A stretch of DNA of 44,033 nucleotides from Herbidospora sakaeratensis (lineage in GTDB: Bacteria; Actinomycetota; Actinomycetes; Streptosporangiales; Streptosporangiaceae). The notes beneath the pieces were generated by a model, which did no database searches, was not told the origin of the DNA, and was given only the letters and a program-made list of their open reading frames with translations. Numbering within the stretch: the first letter of the stretch is position 1; the number at the start of each line of letters is the position of its first letter. The position numbers were made by a program, and so were the translations under genes. Shown here in pieces: positions 114 through 15,852 of this stretch. The stretch spans positions 417,530 to 461,562 of the forward strand of contig NZ_BBXC01000008.1 of assembly GCF_001570525.1 (NCBI RefSeq). The letters are read 5' to 3'.

Positions 114-2852
<2,739 letters not shown>

Positions 2853-2930
2853 GAAGTCTCGCCTCCCCAGAGGTTTGCTGTTGACAACTCGCCCGGCCAT
2901 CCTCCCGTACGCACAGGAGGGGTTGATCGG

Positions 2931-2949
2931 TCAGGCTCGCCTAACCTTG
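2931..2949. promoter_or_regulatory. Iron-box-like operator (DtxR/IdeR type)
   Basis: TCAGGCTCGCCTAACCTTG matches the IdeR/DmdR iron box TTAGGTTAGSCTAACCTAA at 14 of 19 positions and overlaps the likely -10 box and start point of acnA. Aconitase contains an iron-sulfur cluster, so iron-dependent control is plausible. The match is imperfect and binding is an inference. Confidence 0.5.
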
Positions 2950-2971
2950 GGCGAATATCTCTTGATGTCAA
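2943..2971 (-). promoter_or_regulatory. acnA promoter core
   Basis: On the minus strand a perfect -35 TTGACA (2966-2971) is followed after 17 nt by AAGGTT (2943-2948), giving a leader of about 85 nt before the GTG start. The -35 lies inside the palindrome at 2960-2973 and the -10 inside the iron-box-like site. Confidence 0.55.
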
Positions 2972-2973
2972 GA
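2960..2973. promoter_or_regulatory. TCTTGA-TG-TCAAGA palindrome, MarR/TamR-like operator
   Basis: Perfect 6-bp arms TCTTGA and TCAAGA are separated by 2 nt, directly over the acnA -35 box. The MarR-family regulator TamR of Streptomyces is known to bind palindromes upstream of aconitase and other TCA-cycle genes and to respond to citrate and trans-aconitate. Position and form fit such a site. The assignment is from memory of that work, not from a motif search. Confidence 0.55.
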
Positions 2974-2995
2974 TATCGCATTCTCGCGCGGGATC

Positions 2996-3715
2996 TCACA
3001 TCGGCATGAGGCGCAGGAACAGCAGCGCGAACACGGCGACCGACAACGTCGGCGCGAGGATCTTGGTCTCGAACTTCCGGCCGGTCTTCAGGCCCCAGTC
3101 CCACGGCAGCAGCCACTTGTGCTTGAGCGGCCAGAGCACCGGGCAGCCCCGCTCGGTCAGGCAGTCGCCCAGGACGTGGACGAAGCAGCCGATCCCGATC
3201 GCGAACCCCAGCCAGGCGTAGGTCACCCCCAGCCCCCAGAACGCGGCGAATATGCCCCCGGTCAGCACGACGTTGACCACCGCCGAGGCGATCTTGTTCC
3301 CCGGCACCCCGATCCCGACCGCGCGTAACGCGAGCCCGATCGACAACACGACGAGGATGTCCTGCCCCACGGTGAACCGCGTCGCCAGCAGATGGGCCCC
3401 GATCCCCATGAGGACCGCGAACAGCAGCGAGTGGGTCGCCTTGCGGTGCCCCCCGCTGACGAAGTTGACCCCCTTGCTGAGCAGCCACGTCACCGGCCCG
3501 AACGTCTGCGCGATGGTCGCGCTGGGGTGATCGAGGTCGGGCAGCATGGCCGCACCCGCGCAGATGATCGCCCCGGCGATCAACTCGGCCGGGGACATCG
3601 CGGTGGCGAACGCCAGCGACGGCTGGAAGTCGAACACCGAGGGAAGCGCCTGCAACCCGGGCGCGATGCCCAGCCAGACGATCGCCCCGGTCAGCGCGTG
3701 GGAATGGCCCATCAT
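2996..3715 (-). CDS. YdjM-type membrane-bound metal-dependent hydrolase
   Basis: Multi-spanning inner-membrane protein of about 239 residues in the YdjM/LexA-binding membrane hydrolase family. Family metal-binding motifs are visible: MGHSHALTGA at the N-terminus, DLDH near residue 60, HRKATHS near residue 90 and HVLGD further on. About six hydrophobic segments alternate with these motifs. The start is one of two adjacent ATGs (3715 or 3712). Neither has a good ribosome binding site, so the first is an arbitrary choice. The physiological substrate of the family is unknown; E. coli YdjM belongs to the LexA regulon, but I see no SOS box here. Confidence 0.8.
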   Translation of the reverse strand: MMGHSHALTGAIVWLGIAPGLQALPSVFDFQPSLAFATAMSPAELIAGAIICAGAAMLPDLDHPSATIAQTFGPVTWLLSKGVNFVSGGHRKATHSLLFAVLMGIGAHLLATRFTVGQDILVVLSIGLALRAVGIGVPGNKIASAVVNVVLTGGIFAAFWGLGVTYAWLGFAIGIGCFVHVLGDCLTERGCPVLWPLKHKWLLPWDWGLKTGRKFETKILAPTLSVAVFALLFLRLMPM

Positions 3716-3808
3716 GTCGAGATCACGACACGGCAGCGTACGGCAAAGGTACGACAAAACCCGCGAGCCACACGCATGCGGCCCGACTCGGGGCTTCTGC
3801 TCTTGATC

Positions 3809-3905
3809 GCGAGGCGCGGCCGCCCGAAGGGCGGACGGGCCTCGGGCGTCCGAGACGCCGACGGCCGAAGGACGGCGGTGGCTCGGACGTTGAATCTGCC
3901 CAAAT
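3809..3905 (+). repeat. Dispersed GC-rich repeat, copy 1
   Basis: Non-coding segment with two tandem GGCCGNCCGAAGG-type units followed by a GAATCTGCCCAA end. Bases 3860-3905 match 42283-42328 at 34 of 46 positions in the same orientation, and 3809-3834 match the start of that second copy at 21 of 26. The second copy lacks about 40 bp from the middle. Both copies lie in gene-free gaps of 320-380 bp. Together with the hairpin and promoter below, this accounts for most of the gap 3716-4135. Confidence 0.6.
3892..3903 (+). repeat. GAATCTGCCCAA 12-mer, copy 1
   Basis: First of three exact copies in the window (others at 3913 and 34517), all on the plus strand in non-coding DNA. The shorter string CTGCCCAATG also recurs at 3993 and 34521. 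Confidence 0.7.
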
Positions 3906-3912
3906 CAAAGTC

Positions 3913-3924
3913 GAATCTGCCCAA
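3913..3924 (+). repeat. GAATCTGCCCAA 12-mer, copy 2
   Basis: Second exact copy, immediately before the hairpin at 3931-3992. After the 12-mer both this copy and the one at 34517 continue with an ACANGAC string leading into a hairpin arm. Confidence 0.7.
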
Positions 3925-3930
3925 AAAACA

Positions 3931-3992
3931 AGACGGGACTGCTCCGCTCCAAGAGCACCCCCCAGCCCTCTCAGCGCGGAACAATCCCGTCT
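3931..3992. other. Long-arm inverted repeat in intergenic DNA
   Basis: AGACGGGA (3931-3938) pairs perfectly with TCCCGTCT (3985-3992), enclosing 46 nt that contain an inner TGCTC/GAGCA pairing. It is flanked by CTGCCCAA strings. It could terminate the upstream minus-strand or downstream transcript, or be part of a small structured RNA. I cannot decide which. Confidence 0.4.
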
Positions 3993-4049
3993 CTGCCCAA
4001 TGTAACGGAGCGGTCTCAGCACCTGTTCCCCGACATCCCATCTTTTTTC

Positions 4050-4063
4050 GTGACTTGAGTCAC
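4050..4063. promoter_or_regulatory. GTGACT-TG-AGTCAC palindrome upstream of padR
   Basis: Perfect 6-bp arms separated by 2 nt, just upstream of a candidate -35 (TTGCTT, 4073-4078). A second symmetric AT-rich string, CTCGATATATCTTTGAG, follows at about 4094-4110. Either could be the autoregulatory operator of the PadR protein encoded next. Confidence 0.45.
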
Positions 4064-4072
4064 TTGTGGCTT

Positions 4073-4102
4073 TTGCTTGTCGTCGACATGTTCTCGATAT
4101 AT
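4073..4102 (+). promoter_or_regulatory. Candidate padR promoter
   Basis: TTGCTT (4073-4078) and ATATAT (4097-4102) are spaced by 18 nt, about 33 nt before the ATG. The -10 is weak but is the only AT-rich hexamer at a suitable place. Confidence 0.4.
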
Positions 4103-4135
4103 CTTTGAGGCATCGCGTAACACTCTGGAGGACAC

Positions 4136-4858
4136 ATGACCAACGCACACGCCGCCGGCGGCCCCTGGGCCCACCCCCACGAGTTCCACCGGGAGATCCG
4201 CAACCTCAAGGCCGCGCTCAAGGAGAACCTGCGCGGCTTCGCCGCCACCTGGGAGACCCCGGCCGGCGGCCCCCACGACCACCGCCATCGAGGGCATCGG
4301 GGCCGGGGCGGCCCGTGGGGCGGCGGGCCGGGGTTCGGGCCCGGCGGGCCCTTCGGGCCGGGCTTCCCGTTCGGGCCGCGCGGCTTCGGCCGGGGACGCA
4401 AGGCCAAGCGGGGTGACGTCCGGGCCGCCATCCTGGCGCTGCTGTCGGAGGAGCCGCGCAACGGCTACCAGATCATCCAGGAGATCGCCGAGCGGTCGCA
4501 GGGCGGCTGGAAGCCCAGCCCCGGCGCGGTCTACCCGGCGCTCCAGCAGCTCACCGACGAGGGGCTGGTGCGCTCGGAGGAGGCCGACGGCCGCAAGACC
4601 TTCACCCTCACCGACGCCGGCCGCGCCTACGTCGCCGAGCACCAGGACGAGGTCCGCGCCCCGTGGGAGGAGATGACTCCCGACATCGGGGACAACGTCC
4701 ACGAATTGTTTGATTTGTCGCGTCAGGCCGCGTCCGCTTTGTTCCAAATCGCGCAGACTGGAAGTGAGAGCCAGGTGCGTCAGGCCAAGAAGATCCTGGC
4801 CGAGACCCGGCGCAAGCTCTACCAGGTCCTGGCCGACGGCGACACCGACGAGGAGTAG
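4136..4858 (+). CDS. PadR-family transcriptional regulator with Gly/His-rich N-terminus
   Basis: DNA-binding regulator of 240 residues. The PadR winged-helix domain spans roughly residues 93-165 (RGDVRAAILALLSEEPRNGYQIIQEI, then GAVYPALQQLTDEGLV), followed by a helical dimerisation segment to the end. Residues about 46-90 form a low-complexity linker with a His/Arg cluster (HDHRHRGHRGRGG) and Gly-Pro-Phe repeats, longer than in typical PadR proteins. That cluster might bind metal, which is inference. ATG 4136 is preceded by CTGGAGGACAC, a good ribosome binding site. The gene heads a tight run with the DUF1707 and ThiF genes, so it is a candidate local regulator. Confidence 0.92.
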   Translation: MTNAHAAGGPWAHPHEFHREIRNLKAALKENLRGFAATWETPAGGPHDHRHRGHRGRGGPWGGGPGFGPGGPFGPGFPFGPRGFGRGRKAKRGDVRAAILALLSEEPRNGYQIIQEIAERSQGGWKPSPGAVYPALQQLTDEGLVRSEEADGRKTFTLTDAGRAYVAEHQDEVRAPWEEMTPDIGDNVHELFDLSRQAASALFQIAQTGSESQVRQAKKILAETRRKLYQVLADGDTDEE

Positions 4859-5343
4859 TGACCCGTCTCATGACCGCTGACCGTGTTCCGCCCGCCGCGA
4901 TGCGCATCGGCGACAAGGAGCGCGACGAGGTGACCGTCTTCCTGCACGACGCGTTCGCGCAGGGGCGGCTCACCCGCGAGGAACTCGACGAGCGCCTCGA
5001 CGTCACGCTCGCCGCCAAGACCGCCGGCGACCTGGGCGTCGTCCTGGCCGACCTGCCCGGCGGGCAGGGTGTCGGCGCGGCCCCCGTCCCCAAGGCGCAG
5101 ACGCCGCCGGGGATCGACATGGGCAACTGGGGATACCACCTCGCCCGTCCTCCGCACATGCGGGTGCGGCGCGGGCCCGGACCGGGGGCGTTCGTCCCCT
5201 TGATCGTCGTGGCGTTGATCGCGATGATCCTTACGGGTGCGGTGTTCACGGTGTTCAAGATCCTGTTCTTCCTGTGGATCATCTCGCTGGTCGTGGGGGC
5301 GGCCACGCGGCACGGACGCCGTACACCCACGCGGTTCAGATGA
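4858..5343 (+). CDS. DUF1707 domain membrane protein
   Basis: Protein of up to 161 residues with an N-terminal DUF1707 (SHOCT-like) domain: MRIGDKERDEVTVFLHDAFAQGRLTREELDERLD, about residues 15-65. A Pro-rich linker leads to a C-terminal hydrophobic hairpin (about 113-150) ending in a basic tail. The GTG at 4858 overlaps the padR stop (TAGTG), implying translational coupling. An ATG at 4870 is an alternative start, but neither is well spaced from the GAGGAG at 4850-4855. The family's function is unknown; members commonly sit beside PadR or two-component regulators. Confidence 0.85.
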   Translation: MTRLMTADRVPPAAMRIGDKERDEVTVFLHDAFAQGRLTREELDERLDVTLAAKTAGDLGVVLADLPGGQGVGAAPVPKAQTPPGIDMGNWGYHLARPPHMRVRRGPGPGAFVPLIVVALIAMILTGAVFTVFKILFFLWIISLVVGAATRHGRRTPTRFR

Positions 5344-5367
5344 GGCGTCGCACGGGGGAGATCGAGA

Positions 5368-6447
5368 TTGCGGTTTCCGCGGGTCAAAGCGGAGCACCGC
5401 CCGTTCCGCACCACCGAGGGGACCGTCCGGATCGGCGGCGAGATCTACGGGCTCGCCGCCGAGATCGACGACCCCGGGGGCTGGGTCTGGGCGGCCCTGT
5501 CGCTGCTCGACGGGCGGCGCGGGCCTGAGGCGGTGGCCGCGCGGCTGATCGTGATGTTCCCCGATCTCAGTCCCGGCGAGGCGCGCGGCGTCGTCGACGA
5601 CCTGGTCGGCTCCGGCTACCTGGAGGAGGCGACCGCTCCCCCGCCGCGCGGGCTCACCCCGCGTGAGGTCGACCGCTACAGCCGCAACCAGGCCTTCTTC
5701 CGGGGCGTCGACCTGGTGCCCGGCCACAGCGCGTGGGAGACCCAGCTCGCCCTGAAACGGGCGCGTGTTGTCGTGGTGGGGCTCGGCGGCACCGGCAGCC
5801 ACGCCGCCTGGGCGCTGGCCGCGATCGGGGTCGGACGGCTCCACTGCGTCGACCCCGATCTGGTCGAACTGTCCAACCTCAACCGGCAGCTGCTCTACGC
5901 CGAGGCCGACGTCGGCCTCCCCAAGGCCGACCTGGCGCGCGACCGGCTGGGCGCGGCCAACAGCGACATCGTGGTCACCTCGGCCCGCCACCGCGTCACC
6001 GGCGAGACCGACTTACGATCACTGGTCGACGGCTACGACGCCCTCGCCCTCTGCGCCGACGAGCCCAGGGGCGAGGGCATCCGCGTCTGGGCCAGCCGGG
6101 CCTGCGCGGCGGCCCGGGTGCCATGGGCGGGCGGCGGCTACAACGGTCCGCTCGTCACCGTCGGCGTGTTCGACCCGCCGAACGGCGCCTGCTACGAGTG
6201 CGTCGCGGCGGCCGAGCAGGCCCACCGGCCCGACGGCGGGATCCCCGACCTCGGCGGCCCCGGCGTGACCGGAACCTCGGCCGGCATCTCCGGCCATCTC
6301 GTCGCGCAGGCGATCGTCTCCCTGGTCACGGGGGTGCCCGAGGTGGCGCCGGGCTACGTCCACGGCATCAATCTGCTCTCGCCCGACCACCACGTCTACG
6401 CCCGTCATCCCGGCCGCGCGGGATGCCCGACGTGCTTTGGGTCTTGA
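5368..6447 (+). CDS. E1-like ThiF/MccB-type adenylyltransferase
   Basis: Protein of 359 residues. Residues 120-359 are an E1/ThiF/MoeB adenylation domain: nucleotide loop GLGGTGS (138-144), acidic VDPD (161-164), NLNRQ with the arginine finger (170-174), Lys186 in LPKAD, and two CxxC pairs (CYEC 275-278, CPTC 353-356) that form the usual structural zinc site. Residues 1-90 look like a small winged-helix domain as found in RiPP recognition elements and in MccB. Start is TTG 5368, the only in-frame start after the previous stop with a ribosome site (GGGGGAG, 7 nt). It lies 24 bp after the DUF1707 gene and 61 bp before a 37-codon peptide gene whose product ends in Asn, the residue MccB adenylates in microcin C7. 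Not a sulfur-carrier ThiF, since no thiS-like or thi genes are nearby. The substrate is inferred. Confidence 0.88.
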   Translation: MRFPRVKAEHRPFRTTEGTVRIGGEIYGLAAEIDDPGGWVWAALSLLDGRRGPEAVAARLIVMFPDLSPGEARGVVDDLVGSGYLEEATAPPPRGLTPREVDRYSRNQAFFRGVDLVPGHSAWETQLALKRARVVVVGLGGTGSHAAWALAAIGVGRLHCVDPDLVELSNLNRQLLYAEADVGLPKADLARDRLGAANSDIVVTSARHRVTGETDLRSLVDGYDALALCADEPRGEGIRVWASRACAAARVPWAGGGYNGPLVTVGVFDPPNGACYECVAAAEQAHRPDGGIPDLGGPGVTGTSAGISGHLVAQAIVSLVTGVPEVAPGYVHGINLLSPDHHVYARHPGRAGCPTCFGS

Positions 6448-6471
6448 CGGTTCCGGGGGCCGCCTTACGAT
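6444..6471 (+). promoter_or_regulatory. Promoter of the 37-codon peptide gene
   Basis: TTGACG (6444-6449) and TACGAT (6466-6471) with a 16-nt spacer make one of the best sigma70-type promoters in the window. The -35 overlaps the ThiF stop codon. It would give a leader of about 30 nt ending in the strong ribosome site GGAAGG (6496-6501). Confidence 0.6.
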
Positions 6472-6508
6472 CACCTCGTGTCGGGGAACCGGGACGGAAG
6501 GTAACGGG

Positions 6509-6622
6509 ATGAAACAGTCGCAAAACGACGCCACGCCCAGTACGCCCGTCAGACGGCAGATCACCATTCGCCGCCTGGGACGTAACGAGACAGCCATCTG
6601 CAGCAACTCGTACGGGAACTGA
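6509..6622 (+). CDS. Candidate RiPP precursor peptide (37 residues, C-terminal Asn)
   Basis: ATG 6509 lies 7 nt after GGAAGG and opens a 37-residue peptide. Residues 1-14 are polar (MKQSQNDATPSTPV), residues 15-25 are basic (RRQITIRRLGR), and the tail is NETAICSNSYGN. It contains one Cys (31), two Ser and a C-terminal Asn. It sits between an E1-like enzyme and a DUF6879 gene on the same strand, has its own promoter, and is followed by a hairpin. This is the usual layout of a ribosomally made peptide that must be produced in excess over its modifying enzyme. Ending in Asn recalls the microcin C7 precursor MRTGNAN and its longer relatives. I do not recognise the peptide family, and no product has been seen. 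Confidence 0.65.
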   Translation: MKQSQNDATPSTPVRRQITIRRLGRNETAICSNSYGN

Positions 6623-6635
6623 CCACCACTTCGGG

Positions 6636-6659
6636 CCGGCGAGTGGCGCGGATCGCCGG
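6636..6659 (+). terminator. Hairpin between peptide gene and DUF6879 gene (possible attenuator)
   Basis: CCGGCGA (6636-6642) pairs perfectly with TCGCCGG (6653-6659) around a 10-nt loop, 13 nt after the peptide stop. There is no T-tract, so it would lower read-through or protect the 3' end of a short mRNA rather than stop transcription outright. Confidence 0.4.
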
Positions 6660-6676
6660 ACCCGCCAGGAGGATGT

Positions 6677-7285
6677 GTGCGGGAGATCGTGCAAGGCGCA
6701 CCCGGGGTCATGCTCGACCGGCAGGCGTACACGACCGAGTTCTACGGCCTCTACCGGGAGATGGAGGGGGTGCTCTGGAAACTCGAGCGGGCCCAGCACT
6801 TCCACGAGCCCTACAGTCCGAGCTGGGTCGCCTGGGCCGGGGGCGACTGGGACCGGGCGATGGAGCTGATCGAGGAGTCGGCCGGGGAGTTCGCCGCCGA
6901 CGTGCCCGATTCGGTGGAGCTGCGGCGGTTGCGGATCGCCGAACGGCCGCTGACGGCGTACCTGCGGTGGGAACTTCAGGTTCTCAGGGCGCGGGCCAGG
7001 GCCGGCGAGCGCGCCCGCGTGCTCGACGCGGCGGCGGTGGGGCACCTGGAGCGGGCGGGGCCGCTCCCCGAGATCCTGGTCCTGTCCCGGGATCTCATGT
7101 ACGAGGTCCGCTACGACGACATCGGCGCCCACCTCGGCGGGCGGCGGATCACCGACAGAGACGTGATCGCGGCCTGCGTGACGGAGCTGGAGGTCCTCTA
7201 CGGCCAGGCCGACGCGCTCGGCCCGTGGCTGGCGGAGGCTACCCCATCTCCTCCAGTCTTCGGCCCTTCGTCTCCTGCACGATGA
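6677..7285 (+). CDS. DUF6879 family protein
   Basis: Soluble protein of 202 residues with the hallmark pattern of DUF6879: an early aromatic/LE segment (LYREMEGVLWKLERAQHF), a Trp-rich middle (SWVAWAGGDWDRAM), then LRRLRIAERPLTAYLRWEL and the late LPEILVLSRDLMYEVRYD. GTG 6677 follows AGGAGG (6668-6673) by only 3 nt, an unusually short spacing; no better in-frame start is visible. The family is common in actinomycetes, often near small-peptide or XRE/DUF397 genes, and its activity is unknown. Here it closes the PadR-DUF1707-ThiF-peptide run. Its last 47 bp overlap the end of the convergent MFS gene, so the C-terminal residues may be poorly conserved. Confidence 0.8.
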   Translation: MREIVQGAPGVMLDRQAYTTEFYGLYREMEGVLWKLERAQHFHEPYSPSWVAWAGGDWDRAMELIEESAGEFAADVPDSVELRRLRIAERPLTAYLRWELQVLRARARAGERARVLDAAAVGHLERAGPLPEILVLSRDLMYEVRYDDIGAHLGGRRITDRDVIAACVTELEVLYGQADALGPWLAEATPSPPVFGPSSPAR

Positions 7286-8648
7286 ACACCACGAACAGGT
7301 ACGACAGCGCGGCGAAGACGGCGTAGCACAGGTAGGTGAGCGCCAGGTTCCACGCGGCCAGCGGCGGGAACGTCACGGTGATCGCCCAGTTGGCCAGCCA
7401 CTGCGCCGCCGCCGCGACCGACAACGCCGCCGCCCTGATCCGGCCGGGGAACATCTCGCCCAGCAGCACCCACACGATGACCCCCCACGACAACGCGAAG
7501 AACAACACGAACGCGTTGGCCGCGATCAGGGCGACGGCGCCCTGCACGGCGGGCAGCTGCACGATCCCGTCGACGCTGCGGCTGTAGCTGAACGACCACG
7601 ACGCCACGGCCAGCGCGATCGCCATGCCGGCCGAGCCGACCAGCAGCAGCGGGCGGCGGCCGACCTTGTCGACCAGGGCCATGGCGATGAACGTGCCGAC
7701 GATGTTGATGATCGAGGCGGAGAAGCTGATGAGCAGCGAGTCCGACTGGGTGATGCCGACCGACTGCCACAGCACCGACGAGTAGTAGAAGATCACGTTG
7801 ATGCCGACGAACTGCTGGAACACCGACAGGATGACACCGACCCAGACGATCGGCAGCAGCCCGAAACGCGGTCCCCGCAGGTCGCCGAGCCGGGGACGCC
7901 GCCGGGTGCGCAGCACGCTCCTGATCTCGGTCACCCGTTCGTCGAGGTCGACGTGCTCGCCCTCCAGATCGCGCAGCACCTCGCGGGCCTGCTTCTCGCG
8001 CCCGGCCGCGACCAGGTAGCGGGGCGACTCGGGGATGACGCTGGCGAAGGCCAGGAAGATCAGGGCGGGCACCAGGCAGGCGCCGAGCATCCACTGCCAC
8101 GCCTGCAGAGGCCCCAGGTCGTTGTTGACCTCTCCCCCGGCCCACAGGTTGATGGCCAGGTTCACCAGCTGCGAGACGGCGATGCCGAGCACGATCGCGA
8201 GCTGCTGGAACGAGCCGAGCCGCCCCCGGTAGGCGGGCGGGGCGACCTCGGCGATGTAGGCGGGCCCGAGGACCGAGGCCATGCCGATCGCGGCCCCGGC
8301 GAGCACCCGCCAGAAGACCAGATCCCAGATGGCGAACGGCAGCGCCTGCCCGACGGAGCTCACGGCGAAGATGACCGCGGCCAGCCGCATGGTCTTGGTG
8401 CGGCCCCAGCGGTCGGCGAGGCTGCCGGCGAACCAGGCCCCGACGGCCGAGCCGAGCAGCGCGATGGCCACCACCGCGCCGATGGTGAACGGGCCCACGT
8501 TGAAGTAGCGCTGGATGCCCACGACCGCGCCGTTGATCACGGCGCTGTCGTAGCCGAACAGGAATCCGCCGATGGCGCCGGCCGCCGCGATGAACGTGAC
8601 GTAGCCCAGACGCTCCTGCCGTCGTACGGCTACCGGTGGACCCCCCAT
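7239..8648 (-). CDS. Sugar porter family MFS transporter
   Basis: Twelve-helix major facilitator of 469 residues, of the sugar/inositol porter branch. Diagnostic motifs are DRWGRTK (79-85), PESPRYL (206-212) after the sixth helix, QQFVGINVIFYYS (278-290) in the seventh helix, DKVGRR in the central-symmetric position, and ETKGRRLEEM at the C-terminus. It should import a monosaccharide or polyol by proton symport; the substrate cannot be read from sequence. ATG 8648 follows TAGGCTGC with no clear ribosome site. The gene converges on the DUF6879 gene with a 47-bp overlap, so it is unlikely to belong to that operon. Confidence 0.93.
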   Translation of the reverse strand: MGGPPVAVRRQERLGYVTFIAAAGAIGGFLFGYDSAVINGAVVGIQRYFNVGPFTIGAVVAIALLGSAVGAWFAGSLADRWGRTKTMRLAAVIFAVSSVGQALPFAIWDLVFWRVLAGAAIGMASVLGPAYIAEVAPPAYRGRLGSFQQLAIVLGIAVSQLVNLAINLWAGGEVNNDLGPLQAWQWMLGACLVPALIFLAFASVIPESPRYLVAAGREKQAREVLRDLEGEHVDLDERVTEIRSVLRTRRRPRLGDLRGPRFGLLPIVWVGVILSVFQQFVGINVIFYYSSVLWQSVGITQSDSLLISFSASIINIVGTFIAMALVDKVGRRPLLLVGSAGMAIALAVASWSFSYSRSVDGIVQLPAVQGAVALIAANAFVLFFALSWGVIVWVLLGEMFPGRIRAAALSVAAAAQWLANWAITVTFPPLAAWNLALTYLCYAVFAALSYLFVVFIVQETKGRRLEEMG

Positions 8649-8653
8649 GCAGC

Positions 8654-8680
8654 CTACTTGCCCACGATTACGACAAGTAG
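8654..8680. promoter_or_regulatory. CTACTTG-N13-CAAGTAG inverted repeat upstream of MFS gene
   Basis: Perfect 7-bp arms 6 bp upstream of the MFS start codon, covering the place where its promoter must lie. Form and position suit a LacI/GntR/TetR-type sugar-regulator operator; the regulator is not in the window. Confidence 0.5.
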
Positions 8681-8925
8681 CGCAATGGCTACACTAAGGG
8701 CCCATTACCGGATTCGGACTCTGCTTTTCAGGCACACAGTGCAGTGCTGCACCACGACATTGCCGATGCGCTCGGTGTCCTGCCAGTCATGACGCAGGTG
8801 GAACCATGGTCTTCTCGATGCACGTTCATTCATGAGTGATCGCAAGTTCACGCTCTGTCGTCTGCCCCGATGTTAGGCCCTCATAGAGGACCCTGGGGGT
8901 GACGAACGTGTCGCTTCCGTGAAGG
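8681..8925. other. Non-coding gap between MFS and pnkp genes
   Basis: About 245 bp, less GC-rich than its surroundings, with no convincing gene on either strand. It contains a small GTAGC/GCTAC repeat (about 8677-8692, overlapping the operator above) and a 14-bp palindrome GTGCAGTGCTGCAC at 8739-8752. Either could be a further operator for the MFS gene. I can assign nothing else. Confidence 0.4.
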
Positions 8926-8941
8926 CCCGCTCACAAGCGGG
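8926..8941 (-). terminator. Small hairpin over the pnkp stop codon
   Basis: CCCGCT (8926-8931) pairs with AGCGGG (8936-8941) around a CACA loop. The pnkp stop codon (8931-8933) lies inside it. The stem is short and there is no T-tract, so termination here is uncertain. Confidence 0.35.
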
Positions 8942-11387
8942 GGTCGACAGGCTCACACTCCAGGGCGAGCACGGCGAAAACCGCCTCATGGACGCGGTGG
9001 AGCGGCTCACCGGCCGCCAGTCGCGACAGCGCCTCCACCCCCAGGCTATGCTCGCGCAGCGCCAGCGACCGCTTCCGGCCGAGGAAACGTCTGCGCAGCT
9101 CGTCGAGCGATTCCAGGTAGTCGGGGCCGTAGATGATGCGCAGGTACTCGGGCCCGCGCACCTTCACGCCCGGCTGCACCCGGCCGCCGGGGTGGGCGAC
9201 GGGCTTGACCACCATGCCCTCGCCGCCGGCGTCGGTGAGCGCCGTCCACCAGTCGACCGCCGCCCCGCGCTGGTCTTCCTGCTCCAGGTCCACGTACGTG
9301 TGCCGGGTGGCGTGCACCAGCGGATGCGCGACGGCGGCCAGCCGGTCGAGGTGCCAGTCGTGCGGCCGGGTCACGGCCGTGGCGCCCTCGGCGCAGGCGA
9401 GGATCTGGAAGGGCGCGAACCGCAGACCGGAAAGACCGGAAACGGGCTCGCAGTAACGGGCATACGCCTCGCGGAACCGGGCAGCGTTGATCTCGCGGCG
9501 CCGGGCGCGGTCCAGTATCGATCCCACATCCAGACCTCGCCCGGCCGCCGCCTCGAGCGCGCGCACCGCGACGGGCAGCGCGGCCCCGGCGGCGGCGCCG
9601 ACCGAGGCGTACTGGCCGCGGATCAGCTCACCGGCCTTGGCCGACCAGGGCAGCAGTTCGCCGTCGAGCACCAGCCACGGGGAGTCCTCCAGCAGCGGCG
9701 CGAACGCCTCGCGCAGCCCGGCCACGAACCGGTCCTGCAGGTCGCCGGCGAAGAAGGGGCGGCCGGTCCGGGTGAAAACCGTGCCGGCGCCCTCGACGCC
9801 GAACCGCGCCCGGGCGTCGTCGGGGGTGCGGGCCAGCACGACGATCGCGCGGGAGCCCATGTGCTTCTCCTCGCACACCACCCGGGTCACCCCGGCGGCG
9901 GCGAACTCGGCGAAGGCCTCGTCGGGGTGTTCGAGGTAGCCGTCCTTCTTCGAGGTCTCCGGCGGGGCCATCGTCGGCGGCAGGTAGACCAGCCAGCGCG
10001 GGTCGACCGCGAACCGGCTCATGATCTCCAGGGCGGCGACGGCGTTCTCCTCCCGGACCTTGATCGTGCCGCCCGGGGTCTCGACGTAGCGGTCGCCGGT
10101 GACGTCGCCGATGTCCAGCACGTCGGGCTCCCGGCCCCGCGAGGTGAGCGGCCGGGCGGGCTCGTACCAGACCTTCTCGGCCGGGACCGAGACCAGTTCC
10201 CTCTCGGGGTAGCGCAGCGCGGTGAGCCGGCCGCCGAAGACGACGCCGGTGTCGAGGCAGATGGTGTTGTTGACCCATTCGGCGAGGGTGGTCGGGGTGT
10301 GGCCGTAGACGACCGTCGCCCTCCCCCGGTACTGCTCGGCCCACGGGTAGCGGACCGGCAGGCCGTATTCGTCGGTCTCACCGGTGGTGTCGCCGTAGAG
10401 GGCGAACGACCGCACCCGGCCCGAGGCGCGGCCCTGGTACTCCTCCTTGAGGCCGGCGTGCGCGACCACCAGCTTCCCGCCGTCGAGGACGTAGTGGCTG
10501 ATGAGGCCCTGCATGAACGTCTTGGCCCGGACGTTGAACGCCTCGTCTTCGAGGGCGAACTGCTCCAGCGACTTCTCCAGGCCGTGGGCGACCCGCACCT
10601 TGCGGCCGTCGAGGGCGCGTACCAGCTTCTGCTCGTGGTTGCCCGAGACGCACAGCGCGGCGCCGCGCTCGACCATGTCCATGACCCGGCGCAGCACCCC
10701 CGGGCTGTCGGGGCCCCGGTCGACGAGGTCGCCGACGAACACGGCCGTGCGGCCGTCAGGGTGGACGCCGTCGACGTAGCCGAGCGCGGCCAGCAGGGTG
10801 TCCAGCTCCGAGGCGCAGCCGTGCACGTCGCCGACGATGTCGAACGGGCCGGTCAGGTCGGTCTTGTCGGTCCACGCGCGCTCGTAGGAGATCACCGCGT
10901 CGTCGATCTCGTCGCCGCGCAGCACGTGGACGCGGCGGAACCCGTCGCGGGAGATCTTCGACAGCGACTGGCGCAGGTCGTTCCGCTGCCGGCGGATCAC
11001 GTGGGAGCCGAAGTCGCGGTCGGGCCGGACCGCGTTGCGGGCGACCGCGACCTCCTCCGGCACGTCGAGCACGATGGCGTCGCACAACACGTCGTGGCTC
11101 TTGGCCAGGGCGACCAGCGCCTGGCGGGCCTTCCACTGGACGTTGGTCGCGTCGACCACGGTCAGCAGGCCGCGCCGCAGCCGCACGCCGACGATGTGGT
11201 GCAGCAGGTCGAACGCCGCCGGGGTGGCGGCCTGGTCGTTCTCGTCGTCGGCGACCAGCCCCCGGCAGTAGTCGGAGGAGATGACCTGGGTGGGCTTGAA
11301 GTGCCTGCGCGCGAAGGTGGACTTGCCGCTGCCGGACACCCCGACCAGCACGACCAGCGACATCTTCGGAACACTGATCTCGGTCAT
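8931..11387 (-). CDS. pnkp: Polynucleotide kinase-phosphatase-ligase Pnkp (RNA repair)
   Basis: Bacterial Pnkp of 818 residues with three catalytic modules in order. The 5'-kinase has P-loop GVSGSGKST (16-24). The binuclear metallo-phosphatase has DVHG (187-190), GDLVDRG (219-225) and GNHE (249-252). The adenylyltransferase (ligase) domain has the nucleotidyl lysine Lys508 in EEKHMGSRA and DGELLPW near 575. It heals and seals RNA ends such as those left by tRNA-cleaving ribotoxins. The ligase domain needs the partner Hen1, encoded just upstream: the genes overlap as ATGA (start 11387, hen1 stop 11384-11386), and AGGAGG sits 7 nt before the ATG. Slightly shorter than the roughly 870-residue Clostridium thermocellum enzyme. 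The same frame stays open further upstream, but that part is antisense or out-of-frame to hen1 and not real. Confidence 0.96.
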   Translation of the reverse strand: MTEISVPKMSLVVLVGVSGSGKSTFARRHFKPTQVISSDYCRGLVADDENDQAATPAAFDLLHHIVGVRLRRGLLTVVDATNVQWKARQALVALAKSHDVLCDAIVLDVPEEVAVARNAVRPDRDFGSHVIRRQRNDLRQSLSKISRDGFRRVHVLRGDEIDDAVISYERAWTDKTDLTGPFDIVGDVHGCASELDTLLAALGYVDGVHPDGRTAVFVGDLVDRGPDSPGVLRRVMDMVERGAALCVSGNHEQKLVRALDGRKVRVAHGLEKSLEQFALEDEAFNVRAKTFMQGLISHYVLDGGKLVVAHAGLKEEYQGRASGRVRSFALYGDTTGETDEYGLPVRYPWAEQYRGRATVVYGHTPTTLAEWVNNTICLDTGVVFGGRLTALRYPERELVSVPAEKVWYEPARPLTSRGREPDVLDIGDVTGDRYVETPGGTIKVREENAVAALEIMSRFAVDPRWLVYLPPTMAPPETSKKDGYLEHPDEAFAEFAAAGVTRVVCEEKHMGSRAIVVLARTPDDARARFGVEGAGTVFTRTGRPFFAGDLQDRFVAGLREAFAPLLEDSPWLVLDGELLPWSAKAGELIRGQYASVGAAAGAALPVAVRALEAAAGRGLDVGSILDRARRREINAARFREAYARYCEPVSGLSGLRFAPFQILACAEGATAVTRPHDWHLDRLAAVAHPLVHATRHTYVDLEQEDQRGAAVDWWTALTDAGGEGMVVKPVAHPGGRVQPGVKVRGPEYLRIIYGPDYLESLDELRRRFLGRKRSLALREHSLGVEALSRLAAGEPLHRVHEAVFAVLALECEPVDPRL

Positions 11388-12769
11388 GCCGGGTCCTCCT
11401 TGCCGAAGACGGCCATCTGGGTGGGCGAGCCGACCTCGGGGTCGTCGTCGCCGACGGCGCGGAACTCCACCTGGTAGCCGTAGCGTGCGGCGACGCTCCG
11501 CGCCCAGTCGCGGAACTCGGCCCGGGTCCACTCGAAGCGGTGGTCGGGGTGGCGCAGGCCCGTCAGGTTCTCGTAACGCGGGTTGTATTCGGCGTTGGGC
11601 GTGGTGACCAGCACGTGGGCGGGCTTGGCGGCGCCGAAGACGACCCTCTCCATGGCCGGGAGCCGGGGCGGGTCGAGGTGCTCGACGACCTCCATCAGGA
11701 CGGCCGCGTCGTATCCGGCGAACCGGGCGTCGGTGTAGGTGACCGATCCCTGGAAGAGGTCCACCCGCTCGCGGGTCCGGCTGCCCATGCGGTCGAGCTT
11801 GAGTCTCCGGGCCGCGACCATGAGCGTGTGGGCCGACACGTCCACCCCCGTGATCTTCGGTACGCCCTGGTCGAGCAGGGCCGTGATCAGCTGCCCCGTC
11901 CCGCAGCCGAGGTCGATGACGCTGCGCGCCTGGAGCTCGGCGAGGGCCGCCACGACGGCGTCCCGGCGGAGGGTGTTGAGGGGGATGCGCACCTCCTCCT
12001 CGGCCGGCGGCTCCAGCGTCTCCTCCGCGTCGTCGCCCACCTCGGCCAGCCGGGCGAAGGCGGCCCTGGTCAGGGCGGTGCGGCGGTTGAGGAACCGGCG
12101 GGTGATGAGGGTGAGGTCGGGGTGGGCGGCCAGCCAGCCCTCGCCCGCGCGGATCAGCTTGTCGACCTCGTCCTCGGCGATCCAGTAGTGCTTGGCGTCG
12201 TCGAGGACCGGCAGCAGGACGTAGAGGTGGTTGAGCGCGTCGGCGAGCCGGAGCTCTCCGGTGAGCGTGAGGGTGACGTAGCGGGAGTCGCCCCACTCGG
12301 GGAAGGCCGGGTCGAGCGGGATCGGGTCGGCGGTGACGTCCCAGCCCATGGGCTCGAACAGCCGCCGGGCCAGCGCGGGCCCGCCCCGGCACGGCAGCGC
12401 CGGCAGCGTGATCTCCAGCGGGATGGCGGTCCCGGCCAGCTCCGGCCGGGCGGCGCAGCGGCCCGACCTGGCGGTCCGGAACACCTCGGCCATCGCGGTC
12501 GACAACAACGACGACGCGGCGTAGGGACGGTCGTTGACGTACTGGCCCAGGCTGAAGTCGGGGGTGGTCTTGCCCTGGGTGCGCGCCAGGCGTACCGGAT
12601 CGACGTCGAGCAGCAGGGCGGCGGTGCACCTCCGGTCGGTGGCCTCGGGGTAGAAGACGTGGGCCGTCCCGAACGCCCGTGGGAACTCCTGCACCCGATC
12701 GGGATGCTTGTGCAGCAGGAAGCCGAGATCGGTCGCCGGTTCACGGGTGGTCGAGATTGTCAGCAGCAC
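11384..12769 (-). CDS. hen1: RNA 3'-terminal 2'-O-methyltransferase Hen1
   Basis: Protein of 461 residues, the same size as characterised bacterial Hen1. The N-terminal half (1-240) is the Hen1-N region that binds and activates the Pnkp ligase. The C-terminal half is a SAM methyltransferase with DLGCGTG (286-292) and the Hen1 metal ligands: Glu360, Glu363 and His364 in MEVVEHL, and His410 in HRFEW. It 2'-O-methylates the 3' end of broken RNA before sealing, so that the repaired junction resists renewed cleavage. Start is GTG 12769 (MLLTISTTREPATDLGFLLHKH, as in the family). No ribosome site is visible, so the mRNA may be leaderless. Translationally coupled to pnkp. Confidence 0.95.
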   Translation of the reverse strand: MLLTISTTREPATDLGFLLHKHPDRVQEFPRAFGTAHVFYPEATDRRCTAALLLDVDPVRLARTQGKTTPDFSLGQYVNDRPYAASSLLSTAMAEVFRTARSGRCAARPELAGTAIPLEITLPALPCRGGPALARRLFEPMGWDVTADPIPLDPAFPEWGDSRYVTLTLTGELRLADALNHLYVLLPVLDDAKHYWIAEDEVDKLIRAGEGWLAAHPDLTLITRRFLNRRTALTRAAFARLAEVGDDAEETLEPPAEEEVRIPLNTLRRDAVVAALAELQARSVIDLGCGTGQLITALLDQGVPKITGVDVSAHTLMVAARRLKLDRMGSRTRERVDLFQGSVTYTDARFAGYDAAVLMEVVEHLDPPRLPAMERVVFGAAKPAHVLVTTPNAEYNPRYENLTGLRHPDHRFEWTRAEFRDWARSVAARYGYQVEFRAVGDDDPEVGSPTQMAVFGKEDPA

Positions 12770-12799
12770 AGGGAGAAGTGTGCCCTGCCGTAAATGCCG

Positions 12800-12827
12800 G
12801 GAGCGACCGGGTTTCCCCGGTCGCTCC
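12800..12827 (-). terminator. Terminator after the LLM oxidoreductase gene
   Basis: Perfect 12-bp stem GGAGCGACCGGG / CCCGGTCGCTCC with a TTTC loop, 14 bp past the stop of the minus-strand oxidoreductase and 30 bp before the hen1 start. It separates the two units. No T-tract. Confidence 0.75.
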
Positions 12828-12841
12828 GGTGTTCTCGCCTC

Positions 12842-13753
12842 TCAGACGTGCGGCAGGACCTCGCGCGCGATCAGGTCGAGGTGGTCGAGGTCGGACAGGT
12901 CCATGACCTGGAGGTAGACGCGCTCGGCGCCCAGTTCGCCGAAGCGGCCGATCTTGTCGACGACCTCCTCCGGCGTGCCCGCGATCCCGCCCGACCGCAG
13001 CTGCGCGGGCGACTGGCCGATGGCCTCGGCGCGGCGGGCCACCTCGGTCTCGTCGGCGCCGACGCAGACGGTCTGGGCGACGGAGTAGACCAGCGACCGG
13101 CCGGTCTCGGCGGCGGCGGCCCGGACCCGGGCGAAGCCCGTGGCGACGTCGTCGAGGGAGCGGAAGGGGATGTTGTACTCGGCCGCGTAGGCCGCCGCCA
13201 ACCGGGGGGTGCGGGTGGCGCCGAAGCCGCCGATGATGATCGGGAGGGGGGTCTGCACCGGCTTGGGCAGGGCCGGGGAGTCGGTCAGCTGGTAGTGCGT
13301 TCCGGCGTACGAGAACGGCTTCTCGGCCGCCCAGAGGCCCGTGACGATCGCGAGCTGCTCCTCAAGACGGTCGAAGCGCTCCTTCACCGGAGGGAAGGGG
13401 ATGCCGTAGGAGCGGTGCTCGGCGTCGTACCAGCCGGTGCCGAGACCCAGCTCGACGCGGCCGCCGCTCATCTGGTCGACCTGGGCGACGCTGATGTCCA
13501 GCGGGCCGGGGAGGCGGAAGGTCGCGGGGGTCACCAGGGTGCCGAGCCGGATCGTCGTGGTCTCGCGGGCCAGCCCGGCGAGGGTGATCCAGGCGTCGGT
13601 CGATCCCGGGCCGGGATCGTCGGCGTCGAACGCCTGATAGTGGTCGGATCGGAAGAACGCGTCGAACCCCAGCCGCTCGGCCGCCCGCGCGACCGCGAGC
13701 AGATCGTCGTAGGTCGCGCCCTCCTGGGGCTCGGTGAAGATCCTCAACTTCAT
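12842..13753 (-). CDS. LLM-class (F420-dependent type) oxidoreductase
   Basis: Luciferase-like TIM-barrel oxidoreductase of 303 residues. Family features are GFDAFFRSDHY near residue 30, RLGTLVTPATFRLPGPLDISVAQVDQMSGGRVELGLGTGW (about 70-108), LPIIIGGFGATRTPRLAA near 170, and the C-terminal SGGIAGTPEEVVDKI. Actinomycete members of this subfamily (TIGR03560-like) are usually F420-dependent rather than FMN-dependent. The substrate is unknown. ATG 13753 has no ribosome site but a GATAAT box 6 nt upstream, suggesting a leaderless message. It is divergent from the GH18-like gene. Confidence 0.93.
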   Translation of the reverse strand: MKLRIFTEPQEGATYDDLLAVARAAERLGFDAFFRSDHYQAFDADDPGPGSTDAWITLAGLARETTTIRLGTLVTPATFRLPGPLDISVAQVDQMSGGRVELGLGTGWYDAEHRSYGIPFPPVKERFDRLEEQLAIVTGLWAAEKPFSYAGTHYQLTDSPALPKPVQTPLPIIIGGFGATRTPRLAAAYAAEYNIPFRSLDDVATGFARVRAAAAETGRSLVYSVAQTVCVGADETEVARRAEAIGQSPAQLRSGGIAGTPEEVVDKIGRFGELGAERVYLQVMDLSDLDHLDLIAREVLPHV

Positions 13754-13759
13754 TCGGCC

Positions 13760-13765
13760 ATTATC
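13760..13765 (-). promoter_or_regulatory. -10 box GATAAT of the LLM gene (leaderless)
   Basis: Reads GATAAT on the minus strand, 6 nt before the ATG, so transcription should start at or next to the start codon. Confidence 0.55.
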
Positions 13766-13859
13766 GCCGTCCGGCCCTTGCTAGGGTCCCTTGCGGATAG
13801 TAGTCGTCGCGCGACGCTCGGTGGTGAACCAGTTGGATTCCGCTCCTCGGCCCCGCCCC

Positions 13860-14804
13860 ATGGGCACCCCTCCGCGCGCCCTCGTCATGGCCGCCGCGAC
13901 CGCCCTCGTCGGGGCCACGGCCGCCGCCCTCGTGCTGCTGCCGGCCGAACCGCTGCCCGAATGGGCCGCGCCCGTCACCCCGCCCGTGGCCGCCGCCCCC
14001 GCCGTCGCGGTGGCCCCCAAGCCCGAGCAGACCGTGCCCTACGTGACGTTCGTCGACGCGATCCGCGAGGAGGGCGGCATCTCGCGGGCGCCGTCCTACC
14101 TGGTCGGCCACGTCAACGCCACCGGCTGCCTGCCGACGTGGAGCGGCCTGCCCGCCTCGGCGAAGAGACCCCTGGTGTCGACCCTCCACAAGACCGGCCG
14201 CCCCGTGGGCCTGTCGTTCGGCGGCCCCCGCGGCGCCGAACTCGCCGCGACCTGCGCCGGCCCGGCCCGGCTGCTGCGCGCCTACCGGTCGGTCCTGAAG
14301 GCCTACCGCCCCTGGCTGATCGACTTCGAGGTGACCGACTCGGCCGACCTGGTCACGGCCGGCCGCCGGGCGGCCGCGATCCAGCGCCTCCAGGAGGAGG
14401 CCCGCAAGGTCGGCTCCGAACTGATGGTGACGATGACCCTCCCCGCGACCAGAACGGGCCTGTCGATCGCCGACCGCGCGATGCTCAAGGCGACCCGCGC
14501 GGCGGGCGCGGAGATCGGCCGGGTCAACGTGCTGGTGCCCTTCAGCCCCGGCGCCCGCGACAACCTCCGCGCCCTGGCCGACGCCGCCCACGCGGCCAAC
14601 CGCCAACTGACCCGCCTGCTCGACCGCCCCGCCTGGCCCCACCTGGGCCTCACCCCGGTCCTGGCCAGCCCCGACGACCTGACGGTCGCCGACGCCAAGA
14701 CGCTGGTGGCCTTCCAGACCAGGAACAGCCTGGGCGAACTGTCGATCAGGGGCGCGACCCCGGCGGCGGCCGTCGCCCAGATCCTGACGGCGCCGCGTCA
14801 GTAG
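13860..14804 (+). CDS. Exported or membrane-anchored GH18-like hypothetical protein
   Basis: I start at ATG 13860 (314 residues), which puts a basic-hydrophobic signal anchor first (MGTPPRALVMAAATALVGATAAALVLL), then an Ala/Pro linker to about residue 55. The rest resembles a glycoside hydrolase 18/chitinase-like barrel: YLVGHVNATGCLP, RPVGLSFGGPRG, then PWLIDFEV where GH18 enzymes have the catalytic DxDxE strand. Here the strand reads LIDFEV, with only part of the acidic motif, so activity is doubtful. In-frame GTG/TTG codons at 13791-13824 are alternative starts; none has a ribosome site. Its end overlaps the convergent lipoprotein gene by 7 bp. Functional call is tentative. Confidence 0.65.
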   Translation: MGTPPRALVMAAATALVGATAAALVLLPAEPLPEWAAPVTPPVAAAPAVAVAPKPEQTVPYVTFVDAIREEGGISRAPSYLVGHVNATGCLPTWSGLPASAKRPLVSTLHKTGRPVGLSFGGPRGAELAATCAGPARLLRAYRSVLKAYRPWLIDFEVTDSADLVTAGRRAAAIQRLQEEARKVGSELMVTMTLPATRTGLSIADRAMLKATRAAGAEIGRVNVLVPFSPGARDNLRALADAAHAANRQLTRLLDRPAWPHLGLTPVLASPDDLTVADAKTLVAFQTRNSLGELSIRGATPAAAVAQILTAPRQ

Positions 14805-15169
14805 CCGAAGGGCACCTCGATCGGGGTGCCCGCTCTGCGGCACGCCCCCTCGACCGCGCTCAGCGCCGTCGCCAGGGCCGTGGCGTCGGCCGCTTCGGCG
14901 GCCAGCACGGCGTCGTCCATCAGGGGGGCGACCTCACCGTTGGCGGCCTGGACGGCGCGGTCCATGTGGCGCAGTGCCGGGGTCAGCGCGGCGCGGAGTT
15001 CGGCCGCCGTGGCCTGGGCCGCCGCGCGGAGGTCGTCGGCGGCCAGGGCGAACTCCAGACAGGCCGCCGCGTTGACCGGGTCGTGCGCCTGGGCTCCGGG
15101 GGCCTCGCCGGTCGCGGTGCCGCAGGCGGTCAGGGCCAGGACGAGGCCCAGTAAGGCGGTCACTCTCAT
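14798..15169 (-). CDS. Small putative lipoprotein
   Basis: Protein of 123 residues with a lipoprotein signal (MRVTALLGLVLALTAC, lipobox LTAC with Cys16). The mature part is Ala-rich and largely helical, with Cys37 and Cys109 that could pair outside the cell. ATG 15169 is preceded by GAGGAGCCTC, a good ribosome site. I do not recognise a family. The small convergent overlap with the GH18-like gene suggests a compact but independent unit. Confidence 0.75.
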   Translation of the reverse strand: MRVTALLGLVLALTACGTATGEAPGAQAHDPVNAAACLEFALAADDLRAAAQATAAELRAALTPALRHMDRAVQAANGEVAPLMDDAVLAAEAADATALATALSAVEGACRRAGTPIEVPFGY

Positions 15170-15289
15170 GAGGCTCCTCGGGGGTGCTCACTCCCAGGGT
15201 TGCCCCAGGTGTCCGGTGAACCGCCGTTACTGACCGGATTGGTTGGTGTACCAGGCGCACACGCCGTCAGGCCGCGATCGTTCGCGAGC

Positions 15290-15754
15290 TCAGCCTCGCC
15301 CGTCGGCTGCCGGCCCCGACGGCTCGTCGGCGCCGAGCACCCGCAGTATGTCGACCAGTGTCGACAACTGCTCCGAGGTGAGCGGCCTGAACAGCTCTTC
15401 CGCGGCCAGTTCGTAGCCGGCCGTCCAGTCCTGAGCCAGTGCGGCCCCCTGCGCCGTCACCCGGAGGAGAACGGACCGGCGGTCGTCGGTGCTGGCCTGG
15501 CGTTCGAGCAGGCCGTCGCGGACGAGCGCGTCGACCAGGGTGGAGGCGGTCCCCTGGGCGATGCCGACCGCGAGAGCGAGCTCGGTCAGGCGAACCGGTT
15601 GCGACCGGGCCACCTCCACCACCAGGCGGGACCTCGGCGTCGACACCCCGTGCTCGCCCAGGCGCTCGTTGAAGTGACGCACGAGCACCTTCGCCGTACG
15701 GCTGAACTCATCGGCGACCTGTGCCGCCGTCAGCCGCTTCCCGCCGTCTGGCAT
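15290..15754 (-). CDS. MarR-family transcriptional regulator
   Basis: Winged-helix regulator of 154 residues. Helix 1 (AAQVADEFSRTAKVLVRHFNERL) and the C-terminal helix form the dimer interface. The DNA-binding part is LTELALAVGIAQGTASTLVDALVRDGLLERQASTDDRRSVLLRVTAQG, with the wing DDRR. Start ATG 15754 has AGGAGG 6 nt upstream; an earlier in-frame ATG at 15781 would place that site inside the coding region. It is divergent from an SDR gene, with one strong palindrome between them, so it very likely represses itself and the SDR. Ligand unknown. Confidence 0.92.
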   Translation of the reverse strand: MPDGGKRLTAAQVADEFSRTAKVLVRHFNERLGEHGVSTPRSRLVVEVARSQPVRLTELALAVGIAQGTASTLVDALVRDGLLERQASTDDRRSVLLRVTAQGAALAQDWTAGYELAAEELFRPLTSEQLSTLVDILRVLGADEPSGPAADGRG

Positions 15755-15797
15755 CGCCCACCTCCTGCTTGACGCACCCATCGTACGGGAGGTTACA

Positions 15798-15821
15798 TTG
15801 ACATAGATGCATCGATGTCAA
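15798..15821. promoter_or_regulatory. MarR operator between marR and SDR genes
   Basis: A 24-bp palindrome, TTGACAT-N-GATGCATC-N-ATGTCAA, symmetric at all but one base pair. TTGACAT also reads as a -35 box. Being the only strong palindrome in the divergent promoter region, it is the likely binding site of the adjacent MarR protein. Confidence 0.75.
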
Positions 15822-15852
15822 ACTATTCGATGCCAATGAAAGGAGCAGAAGG

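Follow-up and report, generated by a model that had tools for sequence, protein, structure and literature searches.

A predicted cyclic RiPP family associated with an RRE-fused ThiF/E1-like enzyme in Herbidospora and related actinobacteria

ThiF/E1-like enzymes are distant relatives of the ubiquitin-activating enzyme. Those that are fused to an RRE constitute a young RiPP group in which, to judge from the portions of the literature at hand, few members have been characterized, with sources that include E. coli, Bacillus, a myxobacterium and lactic acid bacteria. According to the available parts of two recent reports, IndF joins the C-terminal Ile to a Trp nitrogen via the adenylated carboxylate (PMC12150305); EnfB generates a C-terminal acyl-AMP that is captured by a backbone amide, and the leader of EnfA carries the motif (V/I)RKA (PMC12250964); and GrcB makes a Glu-Cys thiolactone (PMC12250964). 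Further ThiF clusters are said, in the accessible portion of the former report, to be shown in its Figure S1 (PMC12150305). The locus described here lies within the window, that is, the entire stretch of 44,033 nucleotides from Herbidospora sakaeratensis that was analyzed, and, judging by its sequences, adds a new branch, from actinobacteria, to the known RRE-ThiF RiPPs (MccB, PaaA, GrcB, EnfB and IndF), with a chemistry that we infer. No description of the peptide family was found in the open-licence literature, a search made partly among the matches listed. The predicted genes and elements of the locus, in window coordinates, are the following.

5368..6447, + strand: gene for an RRE-fused ThiF/E1-like adenylyltransferase, 359 amino acids, TTG start (PF00899, E 1.7e-44)
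5368..5652, + strand: N-terminal RRE, predicted to bind the leader, residues 1 to about 95, end approximate (PaaA profile alignment, MccB superposition)
6496..6501, + strand: ribosome-binding site GGAAGG of the precursor gene (sequence inspection)
6509..6622, + strand: predicted precursor peptide gene, 37 amino acids, last residue Asn, MKQSQNDATPSTPVRRQITIRRLGRNETAICSNSYGN (kept in all seven Herbidospora genomes)
6560..6592, + strand: leader motif ITIRRLGRNET, residues 18-28, probable RRE-binding strand (31-row alignment)
6602..6619, + strand: predicted macrolactone ring SNSYGN, residues 32-37, with Ser32 at position -6 and Asn37 at the C-terminus (Ser/Cys position counts)
6677..7285, + strand: gene for a DUF6879 protein, 202 amino acids, predicted PLD-like fold without the HKD motif (possible accessory protein or sensor)

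By the criteria of sequence and predicted structure, the window enzyme is a member of the RRE-ThiF family that combines an E1 domain, intact ATP-site residues and a fused N-terminal RRE. In a profile search, its closest PDB sequence match is PaaA, RRE included (E 8.2e-38), with an alignment that reaches PaaA positions 4-220 and spans the RRE; MoeB and MccB are the next matches (2e-36 to 5e-35). The predicted model of the enzyme superposes full-length on MccB, its quality being modest (pLDDT 65, and under 50 for residues 9-34, within the RRE). We compared 129 non-redundant enzyme loci, identical enzymes (over the last 250 residues) being counted once and the distant enzymes L015 and L016 being omitted from both the residue-conservation alignment and the clade-A counts. 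The ATP-site residues R173 and K186 are present in all 129 aligned enzymes, that of the window included, and D231 in 128; the four zinc-type Cys are kept in 129, 129, 129 and 128 of the sequences. The clades A to D referred to below are score bands of a single HMM rather than branches of a tree, and the window belongs to clade A. The enzyme is concentrated in Streptosporangiales: it was detected in 110 of 345 genomes of this order at E<=1e-40 and, in an even sample of 394 genomes of the class (E<=1e-38), in 13, of which three lie outside Streptosporangiaceae. The similarity to the PaaA/pantocin A system extends to the RRE. The core of PaaP is EEN and, unlike in pantocin, no Glu-Glu-Asn occurs among the final 20 residues in any of 61 clade-A tails, that of the window included.

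The 37-residue peptide has no Pfam or NCBIfam match, and its conservation indicates that it is a real RiPP precursor. A single copy is present in each of seven Herbidospora genomes (7/7, the window's genome included), with the same open reading frame and stop in the six named ones, and the frame, stop and tail persist from genus to genus, with a position relative to the enzyme gene that differs: the precursor is downstream of the enzyme in Microbispora (L011, L012) and upstream in Microtetraspora (L013, L014), and, for the 65 clade-A precursors, downstream in 49 cases and upstream in 16. When a precursor was counted only if it was located on the strand of the enzyme, within about 1.8 kb, and displayed the leader pattern (four were added by hand following inspection of this pattern), precursors with the shared leader were found near 105 of the 129 non-redundant enzymes (A, 65/71; B, 5/8; C, 34/36; D, 1/14), a count that is partly a selection effect because many of the loci (L047-L086) were fetched via a precursor match. 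Where selection was by the enzyme alone, once the precursor-fetched loci had been taken and with duplicates kept in the locus counts, the precursor is present at 58 of 79 loci (A, 21/27; B, 4/5; C, 32/33; D, 1/14). The original prediction of a RiPP locus that pairs an MccB/PaaA-type RRE-E1 enzyme with this particular peptide is supported. The condition given there for its refutation, homologous loci that lack a conserved short frame, was checked and is contradicted by the frame, stop and tail shared between genera. The gene is short, and the support for its translation comes from sequence, so that an untranslated frame, arising by chance or serving as a regulatory feature, has to be weighed. 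We assign this explanation a negligible probability given the conservation across genera on both sides of the enzyme gene, the tandem variant copies at some loci (L207-L209), and the recovery by the leader pattern alone of 61 of 71 clade-A loci, against a single match in 487,432 bases of distant control flank; on the last count a chance frame was rejected.

Across the order, 97 of 345 genomes match the peptide profile at E<=0.1; at E<=1e-3, 57 genomes contain the precursor, and every one of these is among the 110 that encode the enzyme. A class-wide search of 394 genomes (E<=0.05) gave matches in 29, including weak ones inside long open reading frames of one genus that we took as false. Two sequences outside the order, with the ends SNSQGA and SSNSQG, also have Ser at -6 but lend weak support: one (G535) is a frame of 24 codons between stops that lacks a usual start codon, and a search of the surrounding 18 kb revealed no enzyme; the other (G624), with Ser at -5 as well as at -6, is encoded on the strand opposite to the enzyme.

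Several arrangements depart from one enzyme with one precursor. L207, L208 and L209 contain two to four tandem precursors beside one enzyme, with the same leader and differing Cys- or Ser-containing cores. Seven precursors (L055, L059, L067, L068, L079, L082, L086), some accompanied by DUF6879, have no enzyme in the fetched stretch; for six of them, all except L086, the enzyme is encoded elsewhere in the genome. Three of these orphans (L067, L068, L082) occupy the site syntenic to that of the window (aconitase, PadR), and this location suggests that the enzyme gene was lost there and that the enzyme acts in trans. Conversely, six clade-A enzymes of a single genus (L191, L195, L199, L219, L220, L221) have no recognized precursor nearby, and possibly act in trans or on another leader.

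The leader, I-x-I-R-x-L-D-K-x-E-T-T, is nearly constant, with R, L and E invariant and I, I and T nearly so in an alignment of 31 rows; Glu is replaced by Gly in the clade-A precursors L192, L193 and L194, which were fetched after this alignment was made and which keep Ser at -6. The IR[RKL]L segment of the family's leader resembles (V/I)RKA of EnfA, as given in the available part of the report (PMC12250964). The original prediction placed a conserved basic core in the peptide; the basic stretch (ITIRRL and following residues) instead belongs to the leader, and the core is short, with abundant Ser, Asn and Gly. With identical 20-mers and identical cores counted once, position -6 is Ser in 44 and Cys in 3 of the 53 unique clade-A tails, 47 in total. 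Among the 45 unique clade-A cores, 39 have Ser/Cys at -6, five at -5 and one, TTGLNQSEA from the sister genomes L065 and L084, at neither; in 20,000 within-core shuffles, the best position held on average 15 and at most 23 Ser/Cys against the observed 39, a figure that is not a probability because the sequences are related. The pattern recurs in the set retrieved by the leader only (-6 in 47 of 52 unique tails, -5 in four, neither in one) and in the enzyme-chosen set (16 of 21, five and none, respectively). The spacing between the leader Glu and Ser/Cys varies from 5 to 8 while the distance to the C-terminus is fixed, and therefore Ser/Cys is anchored to the C-terminus. Otherwise similar tails exchange Ser for Cys (YSGNSNS, YCGNSNS, KCGNSNS). 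Against a nucleophilic role stands the absence at -6, in all 53 unique tails, of Thr, which could likewise form a lactone. In clade B, only three of 11 tails have Ser/Cys at -6, and in clade C none of 22, so that the rule covers the clade of the window and not the whole superfamily.

Taken together with a last residue that is free to vary, a Ser/Cys at a fixed distance is the pattern that closure of the C-terminus onto Ser/Cys predicts. The locus therefore has, as its probable product, a cyclic RiPP in which the E1 enzyme would close the C-terminus onto Ser32 to yield a six-residue macrolactone. In the proposed pathway, the RRE of the enzyme would bind the leader strand ITIRRL, the E1 domain would adenylate the alpha-carboxylate of the C-terminal Asn37, and the hydroxyl of Ser32 would attack the acyl-AMP, with departure of AMP, to give the macrolactone SNSYGN (-18.011 Da); members with Cys at the ring position would form a thiolactone, and Cys31 may compete in the peptide of the window. 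Leader removal is probably performed, in almost every clade-C relative and in some members of clade A, by an M50-type membrane protein, possibly with an RRE of its own. No relative of this protein was detected in the seven Herbidospora genomes, where another protease would therefore have to remove the leader. If the proposal is true, these enzymes would make peptide lactones from a free C-terminus, in a large actinobacterial branch where a simple sequence rule predicts both ring size and nucleophile, with a signalling role possibly conserved in whole genera.

The last residue bears directly on a different reading, in which MccB-type chemistry converts the C-terminal Asn to a nucleotide phosphoramidate, yielding a microcin-C-like peptide-nucleotide (+329 Da). 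The Asn end, a feature of microcin C, is present in the window and in the Herbidospora genomes seen. Across the 53 unique clade-A tails, the final position is held by N (34 tails), S (8), A (6), Q (2), and M, T and G (one each), such that close relatives of the enzyme adjoin precursors whose final residue is A, S, T, Q, M or G. MccB-type phosphoramidate chemistry uses the side-chain amide, and A, S, T, M and G offer none. A tree of bands A and B, built with a quick method from 70 enzymes with one precursor per locus, implies at least 14 changes of the C-terminal residue and at least seven between Asn and other residues; the ring class (Ser at -6, Cys at -6, Ser/Cys at -5, other) also changes at least seven times. 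Nor was any acetyltransferase, peptidase or nucleotide-tailoring family detected in a family scan of the 14 gene products encoded between 117 and 16815, among which the sole MFS gene is of the sugar-transporter type and on the opposite strand. The precursor is 37 residues long with a long leader, whereas MccA, in the portion of the literature available, is a heptapeptide. A phosphoramidate is thus not expected here, MccB-type chemistry seems to us quite unlikely for this peptide, and as a family rule Asn-specific microcin C chemistry was rejected given the varied last residues. The expectation that this would be no standard microcin C cluster is supported, and that of adenylation specific to a C-terminal Asn is not; of the alternative raised earlier, cyclization at the C-terminal Asn, the cyclization itself (-18 Da) is the better fit, Ser/Cys at -6 being the likely nucleophile, and the Asn specificity falls away.

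The GrcB/GRC system, as described in the accessible part of the report, is similar in that an RRE-ThiF enzyme removes water from a precursor to form a (thio)ester ring, as is predicted here (PMC12250964). It differs in using an internal Glu side chain and a C-terminal Cys together with radical SAM partners (PMC12250964, same portion), as against the C-terminal carboxylate and internal nucleophile predicted for the present family; a C-terminal Cys is found in none of the 53 unique clade-A tails, and no radical SAM family is represented among the 14 gene products around the locus (117 to 16815). A GrcB/PaaA-like route, with activation of the side chain of the leader-proximal Glu27 and attack by a core Ser/Cys or Asn, would be in line with the invariance of this Glu in the 31-row alignment, with PaaA as the best PDB sequence match, and with the joining of a Glu side chain and Cys by GrcB reported in the part at hand (PMC12250964). 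Yet L192, L193 and L194 have Gly at this position and retain Ser at -6, and it is the distance from Ser to the C-terminus, not the 5-8 residues from Glu, that is fixed; we consider such a route very unlikely and rejected it given the absence of Glu from these three precursors.

IndF and EnfB, so far as the available excerpts describe them, are closer to the predicted macrolactone pathway, sharing C-terminal carboxylate adenylation and intramolecular capture. They differ in their cores, NWYFI and WWIVI, in which a Trp or backbone nitrogen is used rather than Ser/Cys at -6 or -5, and, according to the same excerpts, in their hosts, lactic acid bacteria as against mainly Streptosporangiales here; neither core occurs in the clade-A tails. 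The imide or amide reported for EnfB (PMC12250964, accessible part) brings up a further variant, namely, C-terminal activation followed by other capture (amidation, a backbone imide, or a Cys31 thiolactone), with Ser(-6) merely positioning the core; indeed, Ser(-6) might serve in recognition and not itself carry out the attack. A Cys at -7, directly before Ser as in the Herbidospora peptide, is present in six of 53 unique tails, and clade C, where 20 of the 22 unique tails end in Gly and no Ser/Cys is fixed, needs another nucleophile. Against this, all but one of the 45 unique cores (44) have Ser/Cys at one of the positions -6 and -5, which, along with the Ser-Cys exchange, is what a nucleophile predicts, and we regard this variant as unlikely.

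The agr AIPs resemble the predicted macrolactone in geometry, the C-terminus being closed onto an internal Cys or Ser, and differ in being made by AgrB and not, as predicted here, by an ATP-using E1 enzyme. AIPs have five-residue rings, a size predicted for five of the unique cores. A tentative and rather doubtful extension is that AIP-like macrolactones and thiolactones made by E1/ThiF enzymes instead of AgrB are widespread in actinobacteria, with a conserved site in Herbidospora and related genera, and that DUF6879 is an intracellular sensor of the ring.

DUF6879 is encoded beside 34 of 71 clade-A loci and none of 58 others, and beside six of 27 enzyme-chosen clade-A loci. It is thus a frequent neighbor in clade A only. 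Of the two roles proposed earlier, partner or immunity factor, the latter finds no support. The protein, with a PLD/TrmB-like fold, might be a non-obligatory partner that perhaps acts in sensing or regulation. The predicted phospholipase-D-like fold is unexpected for a family of unknown function; the HKD motif was not found in DUF6879, and a catalytic role was rejected on this basis. Foldseek alone gives one DUF6879 match at E<=0.001, and a match to the PLD fold does not specify a function. The other recurrent neighbors, PadR, DUF1707, the aconitase region and MFS (in 12 loci, eight of them on the same strand), look mostly like local synteny, and MFS is a possible exporter in some relatives.

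A second large group of enzymes (L144-L176, e.g. L145, L170 and L175) has the precursor mostly upstream and an M50-type protein downstream. The cores of this group end almost always in Gly (GLREGG, INRGGQSG, SWRDGGG) and have no fixed Ser/Cys, which makes a different nucleophile likely; bands B and C may use other nucleophiles. The sole precursor in band D, at L177:4187-4258 on the + strand, comprises 23 amino acids with the same type of leader and ends in Cys (KITIRRLEKIETTAACPIHGDC).
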